A stretch of DNA of 5,264 nt from an uncultured Mollicutes bacterium (GTDB taxonomy: Bacteria > Bacillota_I > Bacilli_A > RFN20 > CAG-826). The stretch covers positions 1-5,264 of the forward strand of contig CAMESA010000077.1 of NCBI GenBank assembly GCA_945935945.1, written 5' to 3'. Shown in pieces: positions 975 to 5,264 of this stretch; the stretch's first letter is position 1; each line of letters begins with the position of its first letter. The notes under the pieces are model-generated. The model ran no database searches and had not been told where the DNA came from. It worked only from the letters and a program-made list of their open reading frames with translations. Both the position numbers and the translations under genes were made by a program.

Positions 975-2271
975 GTGGCTAAAAAATTAATTCGTTTATA
1001 TGAACAAGACACGATAGATTTTTCAAATAATGGTTTGAAAATTTTAAATCCTACGTCAGCTAAAATTACACGTAATTTAATTGAATACACATATCAACTT
1101 GAACTGACACATCTTTTAGATGAAAAAGGTATGATGTTAACAGAAGAAAGAATTTTAGGCTATAATGGTCAGTATTTTAGAATTTCATCTATTAGACGAA
1201 ATTTAAAAGAAGTTAGTGTTATTGCAAAGCATATCTTTTTCGACTTAAATAAAAACTTTATTGAAGATATTAACATTAAAAATAAGACAGGTAGTATGGC
1301 TCTATCACATATTTTAGGTGGAACATCTTACCCTCATTCGTTTTCAGCAACATCTGACATTGATACGGTAGCTAGTTCACGTCTAGTTAGAAAAAATGTT
1401 GTTTCTGCTCTAATTGGAGATACTGATAATAGCTTTATCAATAGATGGGGCGGAGAATTAGACATTGATGGCTTCACTTTTAAGTTGAATGAGCAAATTG
1501 GTAAAGATGATGGGTATACGATTCAATATGGTAAAAACTTAACTGGACTAGACTTACAATTAAACATGTTAGAAGTTGTTACACGTATTCGTCCAGTCGG
1601 ATTTGACGGGATTGAAATTGATGGATTATATGTAGACTCACCATATATTGATAACTATGCACTTCCAATTATCAAGGAAATCAAATATGAAAATGTCAAA
1701 TGGAAAGGTTCTCCAAACTACGAAGAACGTGAAGATGATGATTCATATATTTATGATAATTTGGCAGAAGCACAGGCTAAATTAATTGAATTAGCAACTA
1801 ATGAATTTGTTGTTAATGAAATAGATTCACCAAAAACAACAATCAATATCGAATTCATTGAATTGTCAAAAACCGAAGAATATAAACATTTGAAATTCTT
1901 ACAGAACATTAATATTGGTGACACTGTTCATATTTACCATAAACCATTAGATATTAATTTAAAATCACGTTGTATTGAGTATGTTTATGATTGTATCTTA
2001 AATAAATATGAAACAATCACACTTGGATCATATACAAAAAACTTTTTCACTAAAACACAAAATACAAATAATACACTTGATAAAGGAGAATTAGATATTA
2101 AGTTTTCTGGAATGGTTAATGACATTCTACAACAAACACAAAAACATTTAAATGATTCTATCACACAAGCTATGGGTGGTTATGTATATAAAACAAATAA
2201 CGCATTATATATCATGGACACTGACGATATTAGTACAGCTCAAAAGATATGGACATGGAACAAAAATGGGT
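975..2271 (+). CDS. Tail endopeptidase/hub protein (Tal), exon 1 of an intron-split gene
   Basis: First exon of a gene whose coding sequence is join(975..2271, 2546..4599), 1116 residues. This exon gives residues 1-432 plus the first base of codon 433. Residues 1 to about 375 match the prophage endopeptidase tail family (PF06605-like, gp27/gp44-type hub fold). Markers I recognise are the basic LIRLYEQ start, 'NGQYFRISSIRRN', 'VIAKHIFFDL', 'LLGGTSY'-type segment (here ILGGTSY), the 'NRWGGEL..DGF' motif near 153-165, 'KNLTGLDL', and 'TRIRPVG' near 206. The family forms the trimeric hub closing the tail tip, and some members degrade peptidoglycan; I see no catalytic residues that prove enzymatic activity here. 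Residues about 380-432 are the helical linker and the 'ALYIMDTDDISTAQKIW' segment that leads into the stalk. If the RNA is not spliced, TAA at 2271-2273 ends translation after residue 432. Confidence 0.85.
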
Positions 2272-2545
2272 AAACAGCTTGCCCCTCATACAAGTAATTG
2301 TATGATGAAAACTCGGTGAATTTATGGAAAGCTAAGTTCTATTATTAGAATATGCCAATCATAAGCCAAGCCAATGAAAGTCAATAAAAGTAATTGGAAG
2401 GTTCAGAGACTAATCGTTGAGTCATGACAGACGATAATACGAACAAGAGTGCCGAGAGTCCTATTAATATAGGATTATGATATAGTCCGAACTTATATGA
2501 AAATATAAGAAGTAGAGGATAAAGAGCCTTTACGGTAACAAATTG
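2272..2545 (+). ncRNA. Group I self-splicing intron (subgroup IA-like, ORF-less) in the tail hub gene
   Basis: A 274-nt catalytic intron. The 5' site follows U2271, which forms the expected U.G pair with G2281: GGGU (2268-2271) pairs with GCCC (2281-2284) as P1. The 3' end is G2545, so exon 2 starts at 2546 and the frame is restored (T+TA, Leu). Helices seen: P2 2286-2293/2298-2305 with a GUAA loop; P3 2312-2316/2452-2456; P4 2322-2326/2360-2364; P5 2331-2341/2346-2355; P6 2365-2367/2400-2402 and P6a 2371-2375/2393-2397; P7 2408-2412/2483-2487, plus G2406-C2488 around bulged A2407; P7.1 2413-2417/2431-2435; P8 2459-2464/2469-2474; P9 2492-2498/2503-2509 with a GAAA loop; P9.1 2513-2518/2527-2532. 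A short P10 can form between 2547-2549 and 2277-2279. The conserved R (TTCAGAGACTA) and S (GATATAGTCC) elements are present. The extra P7.1 hairpin and the GNRA loops on P2 and P9 fit subgroup IA. There is no homing endonuclease ORF. G2408-C2487 is the inferred guanosine-binding pair. Confidence 0.95.
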
Positions 2546-4599
2546 TAGCATTTAGTTCCACAGGAGTAGATGGCCCATACACAACAGGAATTACAATGGA
2601 TGGTTATATTGTGGGTTCTATGATTAGTGCTAATAGTATTGTAGGTGAACAAATTCAAGCTAATTCTATTAAGGCGGCAAATTTAGAGGTAGATGTTCAA
2701 AAAAAAATAACAAGTGCAACTGATGAAGAAACGGTTAAAACATTAATCAAAGCAGATTTGGACGGATTTCAGGTAAATGTATCTAATACATATGAAACTA
2801 AAGCGGATGCAATGTCTAAAATCGAAGGTGTTAACGACTCCATTTCTGCCTTAGTTGGTCGTGTTAGTTCGGCTGAGTCTAAAATTACCGATGAAGCTAT
2901 TACGAATACAGTTAAGAAAAGTTTTTATACTAAATCAGAGACAGAAAGTGCTATTACTTCAAAAGGTTATGCAACTGAATCGCAATTACAACAAACTGCA
3001 GATAGTATTACTTATAAATTCAGTCAAAGTGGCGGATACAACTTAATTAAAAATGGTGGATTTGAAAATGGAACTACTCATTGGATAAGAAATGGTAATT
3101 TTACCGATGGTAAGGATGTTTGGTCACCATACGGCAACGGAACATCGTGGGTAATATGGGCAGATGCTTGGTCGGGATTTTACCAATTCTTTAATTGTCG
3201 AGTAGGGCAAACCTATTCGTGGTCAATGGATGTTTATGTCGAGCATGGGTATTTTAGAGCTGGTGTGGAAGATATAAGTGAGGAATGGTATCGAGCAGAC
3301 AATGGATGGGTTAAAATGAAAGGTACTTTTACTGCCACTCGTGAGAGCCATGCTTTTATCCTTTATGCAGCAGAAAATCACACCGCTGTTCATGTTGATA
3401 ATATTATGGTCTGCGAGGGTGATATTCCATCTTCTTATACACCACATCCGAGTGAAATTTATGACGGTATTACAACCATCGACAAGGACGGTATTAAAGT
3501 CACATCATCAATCATGAATGGTTACACACATATGACAAATAGAGGTTTCTATATCAACAAAGATGACAGTAATATTTTTAAAGTTGATGGCGATGGTCTA
3601 TCACTAAGAGGTTGTGGCGCTAATTCTGGACGATATATCAAGATAGAAAATGAAGATTATACAGTATGGAACAATAACATCAACTGTTTGCGTTTTGGTT
3701 ATAAAAACTGGAATGGATGGGATGGAGTACCAGAATTCCTCATGGGATATAAAGGTTTTAGATATACTGATAGTGCAAACACAGGTGAAGATGCTTCTTA
3801 TTTCGGAATGCAAACATGGGGACGTAATGTTAAAAATAATAATGAATATGCTTATCATGATATTTATTATAGAAGCGATAAGTTTGGTGACCAACACCAT
3901 TTAAGATTTTCAGAGGATGGGCTAGTCCAATTACGCTCCCTTAAAAGAATAGAATTAAAAGCCGATTCTGCGAATTATATTGTCGTTGATAAAGATGGAG
4001 GACTATCATTTCCAGAAGGAGTCAATACTTTTGGGGTTAATGATACTATTTGGCTTAAAAACTCGAACTTTGGGATAGTTTGGGGGAAATACACTGGTAA
4101 AGAAGAGTATAATTTACGTCCTGCAACAACATCACCAGTCGATTTAGGCCATTCATCTTATCGTTATCGTACAGTGTATGCCACTAATGGTTCCATTAAC
4201 ACATCTGATATTGTTTTAAAAGAGAATATCGAACCTATTATTTCTAGAGAGTATGCAATGTTTAGAACTAATAATCCAACTATTGAAGACTATTATGAAT
4301 TTGTTAAGACGTTACCACTTTATACTTACGACTATAAAAATGAAGAAGGTTATGATAGATCATTACACAATGTTGGATTTATTGCACAGGATGTAGCAGA
4401 CACAACGGTTGGAAATGAATTTATTTTCAAAGGTGAAGATGGGCTTTATCAGTATAACATGCAGGGATATGTCGGAGTATTAGCTGCTGCTTTACAGAAC
4501 GCTATAAAAGAAATTGATACTCTAAAAGTAAAAAATAATGAATTAGAGGAGCGTTTAAATGATTTAGAAGAACGATTAATTAAACTGGAAACCACCTAA
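2546..4599 (+). CDS. Tail hub/receptor-binding protein (Tal), exon 2: stalk, carbohydrate-binding domain and S74 chaperone
   Basis: Second exon of join(975..2271, 2546..4599), ending at TAA 4597-4599; it supplies residues 433-1116. It opens with LAFSSTGVDGPYTTGITMDG, completing the conserved NG-L-x-FSSTG motif begun in exon 1. The frame is open back to 2539, so ATG 2596 is an internal Met, not the start. Residues about 450-590 are a helical/coiled stalk (ISANSIVGEQIQANSI, then Ser/Thr/Lys-rich repeats). Residues about 594-730 resemble a CBM4/9-type jelly roll: NLIKNGGFENG..HW, Trp-rich strands, 'AVHVDNIMVCEGDIPSSYTPHP'. This probably binds cell-wall glycan. A Gly/aromatic-rich shaft follows. 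LGHSSYRYRTVYATNGSINTSD leads into the peptidase S74 intramolecular chaperone (here split: LGHSSYRYRTVYATN, GSINTSD). Ser986 and Lys991 in SDIVLKENI match the S...K spacing of the autocleavage dyad, so the last 131 residues, ending in a leucine-heptad coiled coil, are likely released after trimer folding. Without splicing this exon has no good ribosome binding site. Confidence 0.87.
3046..3123 (+). repeat. Two adjoining 13-codon imperfect repeats in the carbohydrate-binding domain
   Basis: 3046-3084 encodes IKNGGFENGTTHW and 3085-3123 encodes IRNGNFTDGKDVW, directly abutting and in frame (residues about 600-625 of the spliced protein). Six of 13 residues are identical, with K/R and N/D as conservative changes; by my count 23 of 39 bases match. 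The motif is the usual opening strand of CBM4/9-like domains, which normally occurs once. Confidence 0.6.
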
Positions 4600-4622: not shown

Positions 4623-4895
4623 TTGGAAGAAAATTTATTAAGTAGATTATCACGCTTAGAAGTCCAGATTGAGAATATTGAAAAATCTCTAGATGTAGTT
4701 CAAGCCGAAACAAAGGCAAATAATCAATTGTGCAATGAATTAAATAAAATGGTCATTGAATTGAAGATCAGTAATGAAAACACAGCAAAAATGATTGAAG
4801 AAGTTAAAGGTAACAATAGTAAGGTGACATGGTTTTTTATCACAACTATTGCTACCTTTTTAATTACTCAGATTTTAAATTTTATTTCTAAGTAA
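4623..4895 (+). CDS. Small coiled-coil protein with C-terminal membrane anchor (XhlA-like)
   Basis: A 90-residue protein starting at TTG 4623 and ending at TAA 4893-4895, 23 nt after the tail hub gene. Residues 1 to about 65 are charged and helical, with heptad hydrophobics (LLSRLSRLEVQIENIEKSL, then repeated N/K/E-rich helix). Residues about 68-88 form one transmembrane helix (WFFITTIATFLITQILNFI), leaving a very short K-ending tail. There is no signal peptide. This layout matches the haemolysin XhlA family (PF10779-like), small membrane proteins of Bacillota phages that work with holins in lysis; the match rests on architecture, not on a diagnostic motif. Its place between two tail genes, rather than beside a visible holin and endolysin, is slightly unusual, so a virion-assembly or membrane-associated tail role remains possible. 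Confidence 0.6.
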   Translation: MEENLLSRLSRLEVQIENIEKSLDVVQAETKANNQLCNELNKMVIELKISNENTAKMIEEVKGNNSKVTWFFITTIATFLITQILNFISK

Positions 4896-4923: not shown

Positions 4924-5264
4924 ATGGCAAAAAAAATATCCCAACTCACACAAGCTACTGAAGTTAAATCAGATGATGTGACAGTTATTGTACAGGATGG
5001 GGAAACGAAAAAATTACCATTAAACATGATGGTAACTAAGCAAGACATTGAAAATAAAAAAGTTGCAGGACTCGCAAAATTAGATGAAATTGAAGCAACT
5101 TATGAGAACGACACTTATACACCAACGATCACAGTTAAAAATAAGTCGTCTGTCAAAACTGGTGAGGGTGATGAAGTAGATTATTCGGCAAATGTTATGG
5201 ATGGACATGCTAAAAGTGCAATTTTAAAAGGTTGTACGGGTTATCGTGATATTGATACAGGCGA
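4924..5264 (+). CDS. Phage tail/fibre-type structural protein, N-terminal part (3' partial)
   Basis: An open frame from ATG 4924 runs past the window edge, giving 113 complete codons. The opening MAKKISQLTQATEVKSDD, followed by VTVIVQDGETKKLPLNMM, matches a short motif ('ISxLTxAxxxxxDDxxxIVQDGxTKKI') that I know from the N-termini of many phage tail-appendage and fibre proteins, where it probably docks the protein on the virion. A short linker follows, then a beta-rich, Asp/Gly/Thr-rich stretch ending near ILKGCTGYRDIDTG, the type of sequence that precedes a jelly-roll or CBM-like domain in such proteins. It follows the XhlA-like gene by 28 nt and seems to belong to the same operon. The rest of the protein, and so its receptor or enzymatic domain, is not in the window; baseplate or upper-fibre protein is the best guess. 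Confidence 0.6.
   Translation, partial: MAKKISQLTQATEVKSDDVTVIVQDGETKKLPLNMMVTKQDIENKKVAGLAKLDEIEATYENDTYTPTITVKNKSSVKTGEGDEVDYSANVMDGHAKSAILKGCTGYRDIDTG

Follow-up and report, generated by a model that had tools for sequence, protein, structure and literature searches.

The window analysed here, a stretch of 5,264 nt, represents the tail-tip region of a siphophage and contains the following features:

3-194: end of a tape-measure gene (phrog_1272)
252-962, + strand: distal tail protein Dit (phrog_33, E 1e-24), directly 5' of tal
975-4599, + strand: tal, interrupted
975-2271, + strand: tal exon 1, encoding the hub; 432 codons and the first base (U) of a split codon
2272-2545, + strand: predicted ORF-less group I intron, 274 nt (detected with RF00028; ends set by uninterrupted alleles)
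2546-4599, + strand: tal exon 2, comprising the last two bases of the Leu codon, a conserved block (AFSSTG...TMDG), a distal module and a C-terminal S74 chaperone of endosialidase
4623-4895: small protein of unknown function with a TTG start and a hydrophobic C-terminal stretch (weak match to phrog_276)
4924 onwards: a further ORF, start only

The first of the two tal ORFs (975-2273) encodes 432 amino acids with the C-terminal sequence WTWNKNG and is closed by a TAA stop codon at 2271-2273. The second ORF spans positions 2596-4599, and its reading frame extends without a stop back to 2546, where the 3' exon is proposed to start. The product of exon 1 contains a Prophage_tail (endopeptidase) domain (PF06605, residues 88-357, E 3.4e-24) and a Prophage_tailD1 domain (PF18994, E 2.3e-5), and the S74 chaperone of endosialidase (PF13884, E 1.1e-9) was detected at the C-terminal end of exon 2. 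The best family for exon 1, phrog_1067 (named minor head protein), is absent from the list obtained for exon 2. PHROG 5555, second-best for exon 1 and fourth for exon 2, covers both exons, with profile positions 2-415 on exon 1 and 418-467 on exon 2, such that positions 415 and 418 meet at the exon joint. Judging from these matches, the host gene is one for a prophage-endopeptidase-type tail-tip protein (Tal) that ends in an S74 chaperone. The closest relative in GTDB is 42% identical.

The intron core and its fold

A sequence-only reading of the window had placed an ORF-less group I intron with helices P1 to P9 and the conserved core between the two ORFs, and had pointed to a covariance model as the check. 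The cmscan search (cut-off 50) bears this prediction out: RF00028 matches positions 2262-2509 over the full model (1-253) with 99.0 bits and an E value of 1.7e-25. In a separate cmscan with the same model, the control introns of Twort orf142 scored 100.9, 97.4 and 63.6 bits. The elements assigned to the intron, all on the + strand, are listed below, with pair counts that refer to helix limits chosen by hand:

P1: exon GGGU 2268-2271 with guide GCCC 2281-2284, 4/4 pairs, including the U2271.G2281 wobble
P2: 2286-2305, 8/8 pairs, GUAA tetraloop
P3: 2312-2317 with 2451-2456, 6/6 pairs, closing P4, P5/P5a and P6/P6a
P4: 2322-2327 with 2359-2364, 6/6 pairs
P5/P5a: 2331-2355, 2/2 pairs in P5 and 6/6 in P5a
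P6/P6a: 2365-2402, 3/3 pairs in P6 and 5/5 in P6a
P7: GACUA 2408-2412 with UAGUC 2483-2487, 5/5 pairs, pseudoknotted with P3/P8
candidate P7.1/P7.2-like extension between the P7 5' strand and the P3 3' strand: 2413-2449
P8: 2457-2476, 8/8 pairs
P9: 2492-2509, 7/7 pairs, GAAA tetraloop
P9.1: 2512-2533, 7/7 pairs

P7 is the guanosine-binding helix of group I introns. Between P7 and P3, where subgroup IA has P7.1/P7.2, the window intron carries an insertion of 35 nt relative to RF00028, a candidate for such an extension. Unconstrained folding recovered P1, P2, P3, P4, P5, P5a, P6, P6a, P8, P9 and P9.1; P7 is missing from this fold because it is part of a pseudoknot, which that type of folding cannot draw. 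The fold has an energy of -65.1 kcal/mol compared with -48.0 (sd 4.8) for shuffled sequences (z = -3.54), and none of the 200 shuffles was as stable. The window intron resembles the Twort introns in parts, and a comparison of P9.1 with that of Twort intron 3, made by hand, showed different letters with the pairing preserved. P10 is weak (3 bp with a one-base offset), a point against the intron reading. As predicted for an ORF-less intron, no ORF of at least 50 amino acids lies wholly within 2272-2545, and no homing endonuclease is encoded; two ORFs cross the intron ends (2152-2319 on the + strand and 2381-2551 on the - strand).

Splice sites and the exon joint

At the 5' splice site, U2271 and G2281 form the U.G wobble pair of P1. 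At the 3' end, G2545 taken as the last intron base yields the junction NKNGLAFSSTGVDGPYTTGI, which is identical to the uninterrupted allele P0131 in 20 of 20 positions, and the other 16 of the 17 G residues tested between 2510 and 2575 reach identities of only 4-6 out of 20. Immediately upstream, at 2525-2541, lies the 3' signature AGCCTTTACG(A/G)TAACAA, in the window AGCCTTTACGGTAACAA, which is expected by chance 0.01 times per window when up to 3 mismatches are allowed. Furthermore, when the two exons were aligned separately to uninterrupted relatives, exactly one residue, Leu, was found between them in all 13 cases (the relatives with at least 83% exon-1 identity, 83-99%, among the 16 uninterrupted ones listed), and this Leu corresponds to the codon U|UA that excision would create.

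What had been proposed from the letters of the window holds up, namely the U.G pair at the 5' splice site, G2545 as the terminal G, the length of 274 nt, the restoration of the frame upon excision and the joined motif WNKNG-L-AFSSTG. The same is true of the assignment of the host gene to Tal, with which PHROG 5555 and the Pfam domains agree, and of the view that the two ORFs are halves of one Tal protein: the homologues, named as the place where this view could fail, have one protein in 13 of 13 cases, and PHROG 5555 matches both halves. In some siphophages, hub and receptor-binding proteins are encoded by separate genes, so the two ORFs could in principle encode proteins that are separate by nature, divided by an unremarkable intergenic stretch whose RNA fold arose by chance. 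Given one continuous protein through the joint in every close relative tested and the E value of the RF00028 match, we consider this explanation extremely improbable.

We regard it as very probable that the tal gene of a Bacillota-type siphophage is interrupted at 2272-2545 by an ORF-less group I (Twort-like) intron, the splicing of which would give a Tal of 1,116 residues. The complete core, the exact ends, the frame left intact by excision and the uninterrupted alleles can all be read from the DNA and protein sequences. We infer self-splicing with guanosine and a spliced mRNA, and likewise the group of the host and how the intron spread. After transcription, the RNA would fold into the P3-P9 core, and a guanosine bound in P7 would attack after U2271. 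In the second step, the GGGU at the end of exon 1, kept in place by P1, would attack after G2545, and the exons would be joined as GGG-U|UA-GCA (Gly-Leu-Ala) to encode the 1,116-residue tail-tip protein. From unspliced RNA, only the 432-residue hub would be made, since a UAA stop codon is completed by the first two bases of the intron. Since the intron lacks a nuclease gene, it probably arrived through the homing of another element, or by recombination, and it may now be kept as a polymorphic, near-neutral parasite.

Interrupted and uninterrupted Tal alleles

The insertion site of the window (hereinafter, site B) was compared among related proteins. In the search with the exon-1 protein (best 120 of 888 matches), the five sequences P0001-P0005, which are 98, 97, 85, 85 and 84% identical to the query and represent 99, 72, 37, 6 and 46 member sequences, respectively (260 in all), stop exactly at WN(K/R)NG. 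Three others, P0131, P0140 and P0062 (98-99% identity), read through. Given these stop and read-through alleles, site B looks polymorphic in a closely related population. The stop in P0001-P0005, which are known from proteins alone, would be due to the same intron as in the window. An IMG/VR scan for close relatives with exon 1 only gave nine stretches, none of which was confirmed; a motif scan of IMG/VR for uninterrupted alleles gave none, and a loose scan for the filled site gave at least 120 loci (L192-L311), all lacking the 3' marker.

These alleles bear on the possibility that the window contains a degenerate group I intron that no longer splices, so that tal would be either broken or split into the 432-aa hub and a separately translated 667-aa distal protein starting at ATG2596. 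At the insertion, exon 1 indeed runs into a clean stop, and the in-frame ATG2596 is preceded by AGGA seven bases upstream, a possible signal for separate translation of exon 2. However, all core helices tested are fully paired, exon 2 is open right to the splice site, and the proteins that end at the site-B codon are numerous (the P0001 and P0002 groups in particular), which would not be expected if an essential tail gene were broken; we consider this alternative very unlikely and retain the splicing intron as the preferred reading.

Together, three protein searches (best 120 each of 888, 828 and 219 matches) yielded 265 proteins, of which 173 had a blastp match to exon 1 with E <=1e-20 and were classified. 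Eight of these 173 listed relatives end at site B (after residue 432), seven end at a Gly-Gly 30 codons upstream (site A, after residue 402), ten extend 24 or 26 residues beyond site B and end there (site C), and 55 read through. The remaining 93 were unclassed; 56 of them are P0006-P0061, and the rest include fragments or motifs missed by the pattern. Both kinds of site-C proteins continue for 19 residues past site B to the same Asp and then show either RTTVL or KQNCPLI before the stop. Site A is a candidate interruption site on the basis of protein ends.

For site C, a genomic counterpart is available in L106 (IMG/VR 3300029904_000016), the Tal of which is 51% identical. Its exon 1 reads ...ITRD and meets a stop five codons on; the insert (7357-8196) contains an ORF with NUMOD4, HNH_3 and NUMOD1 domains and ends with the same 3' signature as the window, after which exon 2 resumes with GHIVADFIDTG. 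P0072 is a natural empty allele for this site, ITRDGHIVADFIDTG, with 410 of 458 residues identical to L106 in exon 1 and 103 of 186 in the first 200 codons of exon 2. Although RF00028 does not match the L106 Tal insert even at E 5, we call it a putative group I intron on the basis of its 3' end, P7-like pairing, U.G start, HNH ORF and the empty allele P0072. A pattern search for covariation in P7 among the marker-bearing loci, which had little reach, found 5'-strand partners with 5/5 pairing in only five of 22 rows (L001, L002, L011, L022 and L106, with L022 duplicating L011), the pair types being GCGTA/TACGC and GCATA/TATGC; a stricter P7 pattern found one. The L106 insert shares with the window intron the gene, the conserved block and the 3' end. 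Unlike the latter, it lies 19 codons downstream, between Asp and Gly rather than within a Leu codon, and it carries a NUMOD4-HNH_3-NUMOD1 ORF and escapes RF00028, whereas the window intron is ORF-less and detected.

The 41.9-kb phage contig of L106 contains three intron signals altogether, the HNH-bearing Tal insert and two RF00028 matches, one at 140-402, upstream of a 1,259-aa ORF that is a putative tape measure gene, and the other at 34.1 kb (G001:C1:34118-34450).

In 53 of the 56 proteins P0006-P0061, NNTLD is followed immediately by NVSN. P0006 is identical to P0140 in 726 of 745 positions and lacks, in frame, residues 370-509 of the latter, so that all three sites are lost. This block-less form is a common Tal allele; that it represents an escape from homing is speculation. 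The 745-aa group was also considered as a target of diversity generation, and this was rejected because none of the columns exceeded an entropy of 1.5 across the 50 proteins compared.

Sites A, B and C all lie beyond the end of the Prophage_tail domain (residue 357) and before the region in which the relatives diverge. With such an arrangement, the intron could be kept as a switch, tied to GTP or translation, that gives a hub-only tail tip from unspliced RNA and a long one from spliced RNA, an idea that has been proposed for other phage introns (PMC11878797). The coexistence of uninterrupted alleles speaks against it, and we find it very unlikely for the window, where the near-neutral intron remains our preferred reading. 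The conserved stretch GG|Y...NG|L...D|G, where the hub of Tal meets its distal module, looks like an intron hot spot. A broader and rather doubtful scenario takes it as a hot spot of group I introns next to an exchangeable module: homing of HNH-encoding versions such as that of L106, with co-conversion of the flanks, would help to swap distal modules between phages, and one common allele would have escaped by in-frame deletion of the block.

Interruptions of this kind are rare among the Tal loci compared from named collections. Of 160 such loci (80 from GTDB and the best 80 of 178 from IMG/VR), 149 continue beyond the match for at least 120 codons and 11 are short; six of the latter run off the contig, four (L069, L085, L086 and L142) have no 3' marker on a brief look, and the last is L106. 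Only L106 was found to be interrupted in the conserved block, at another site than the window, which counts against our preferred reading of the latter. RF00028 matched two of the 80 viral Tal records, with all three matches lying outside the Tal block, and did not match L026, L028 and L030, the three scanned of the 80 GTDB loci. With L106 alone among the 160 loci and no RF00028 match in the viral Tal blocks, the clustering of sites appears to belong to one Tal subfamily, known here almost only from metagenome proteins.

Introns in phage tail genes

The 3' signature was found in 31 of the 311 loci, beside different 3' exons; several of these loci come from one contig, and many were retrieved by a pattern containing the signature itself. 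Other 3' exons, too, are preceded by introns or presumed introns with 3' ends similar to that of the window intron. In the crAss-like phage OQ198718 (L191), RF00028 matches 2958-3343 with 74.1 bits between two CDSs annotated as flavin-dependent thymidylate synthase, which probably are a split gene. In Clostridioides phage CD1801 (MW512570, L190), the same 3' signature occurs in the gap that separates the portal gene from the next gene annotated (2293-3076), where RF00028 gave no match at E 0.05. The gut phage contig MT837385 (L003) combines the 3' signature, an RF00028 match, ROOL RNA, RAGATH-18 RNA and tRNAs (coordinates given, 4981-4997, 5276-5525 and 8424-9021).

The sequence-only reading had called a tail-tip hub less familiar as a host gene, and this surprise is justified in part. 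Published group I introns of phages include cases in tail genes: in the tail tube gene of Twort (PMC11878797), in tape measure genes (PMC10448857) and, as an ORF-less intron of 265 bp, in a minor tail gene of the Cluster J mycobacteriophages BAKA and Optimus (PMC3706429); introns in lysin genes are likewise on record (PMC5601072, PMC9430571, PMC6507118). For Tal or a tail-hub gene, no intron report was found among the papers listed from open-access full texts, a body of literature with subscription journals largely outside it.

The introns of Twort orf142 share with the window intron the RF00028 class, the score range, a tail gene as host and a similar P9 and 3' end; they differ in residing in the tail tube gene and in occurring as a group of three within a single gene of a single phage; the Tal interruptions, by contrast, are distributed among different alleles. 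The BAKA/Optimus intron has a U before it and a G at its end, and was found via intron-less relatives, with splicing shown by RT-PCR (PMC3706429). It resembles the window intron in lacking an ORF, in having a tail gene as host, in both terminal bases and in the existence of intron-less relatives, and differs in belonging to a mycobacterial phage and in its RT-PCR evidence, the window intron being known from sequence. Presumed tape-measure introns of Arcanobacterium phage TPWB06 (PQ358086, where the annotation names the interrupted gene tape measure) and Staphylococcus phage vB_SpsS-DH5 (OM373549, Sextaecvirus) agree with the window intron in the 5' exon end (GGGU), the guide (TTGCCC) and the 3' end (GGATAAAnAGCCTTTACGnTAACAA) but, unlike it, have no RF00028 match at the gathering score.

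For annotation, a short Tal ORF that ends in WNKNG or a similar motif may be an exon, and RF00028 alone can miss inserts such as that in the L106 Tal. Group I introns in phage tail genes being already known, the part worth following is the clustering of interruption sites. A 2025 study asks why phage introns are confined almost entirely to genes of nucleotide and DNA metabolism (PMC11878797). In the related phages compared here, introns seem to have entered a tail-tip gene at up to three codons close to one another, and filled and empty alleles occur side by side. The Tal sites could therefore be used to test which of three things introns follow: conserved DNA, essential genes or recombination joints.
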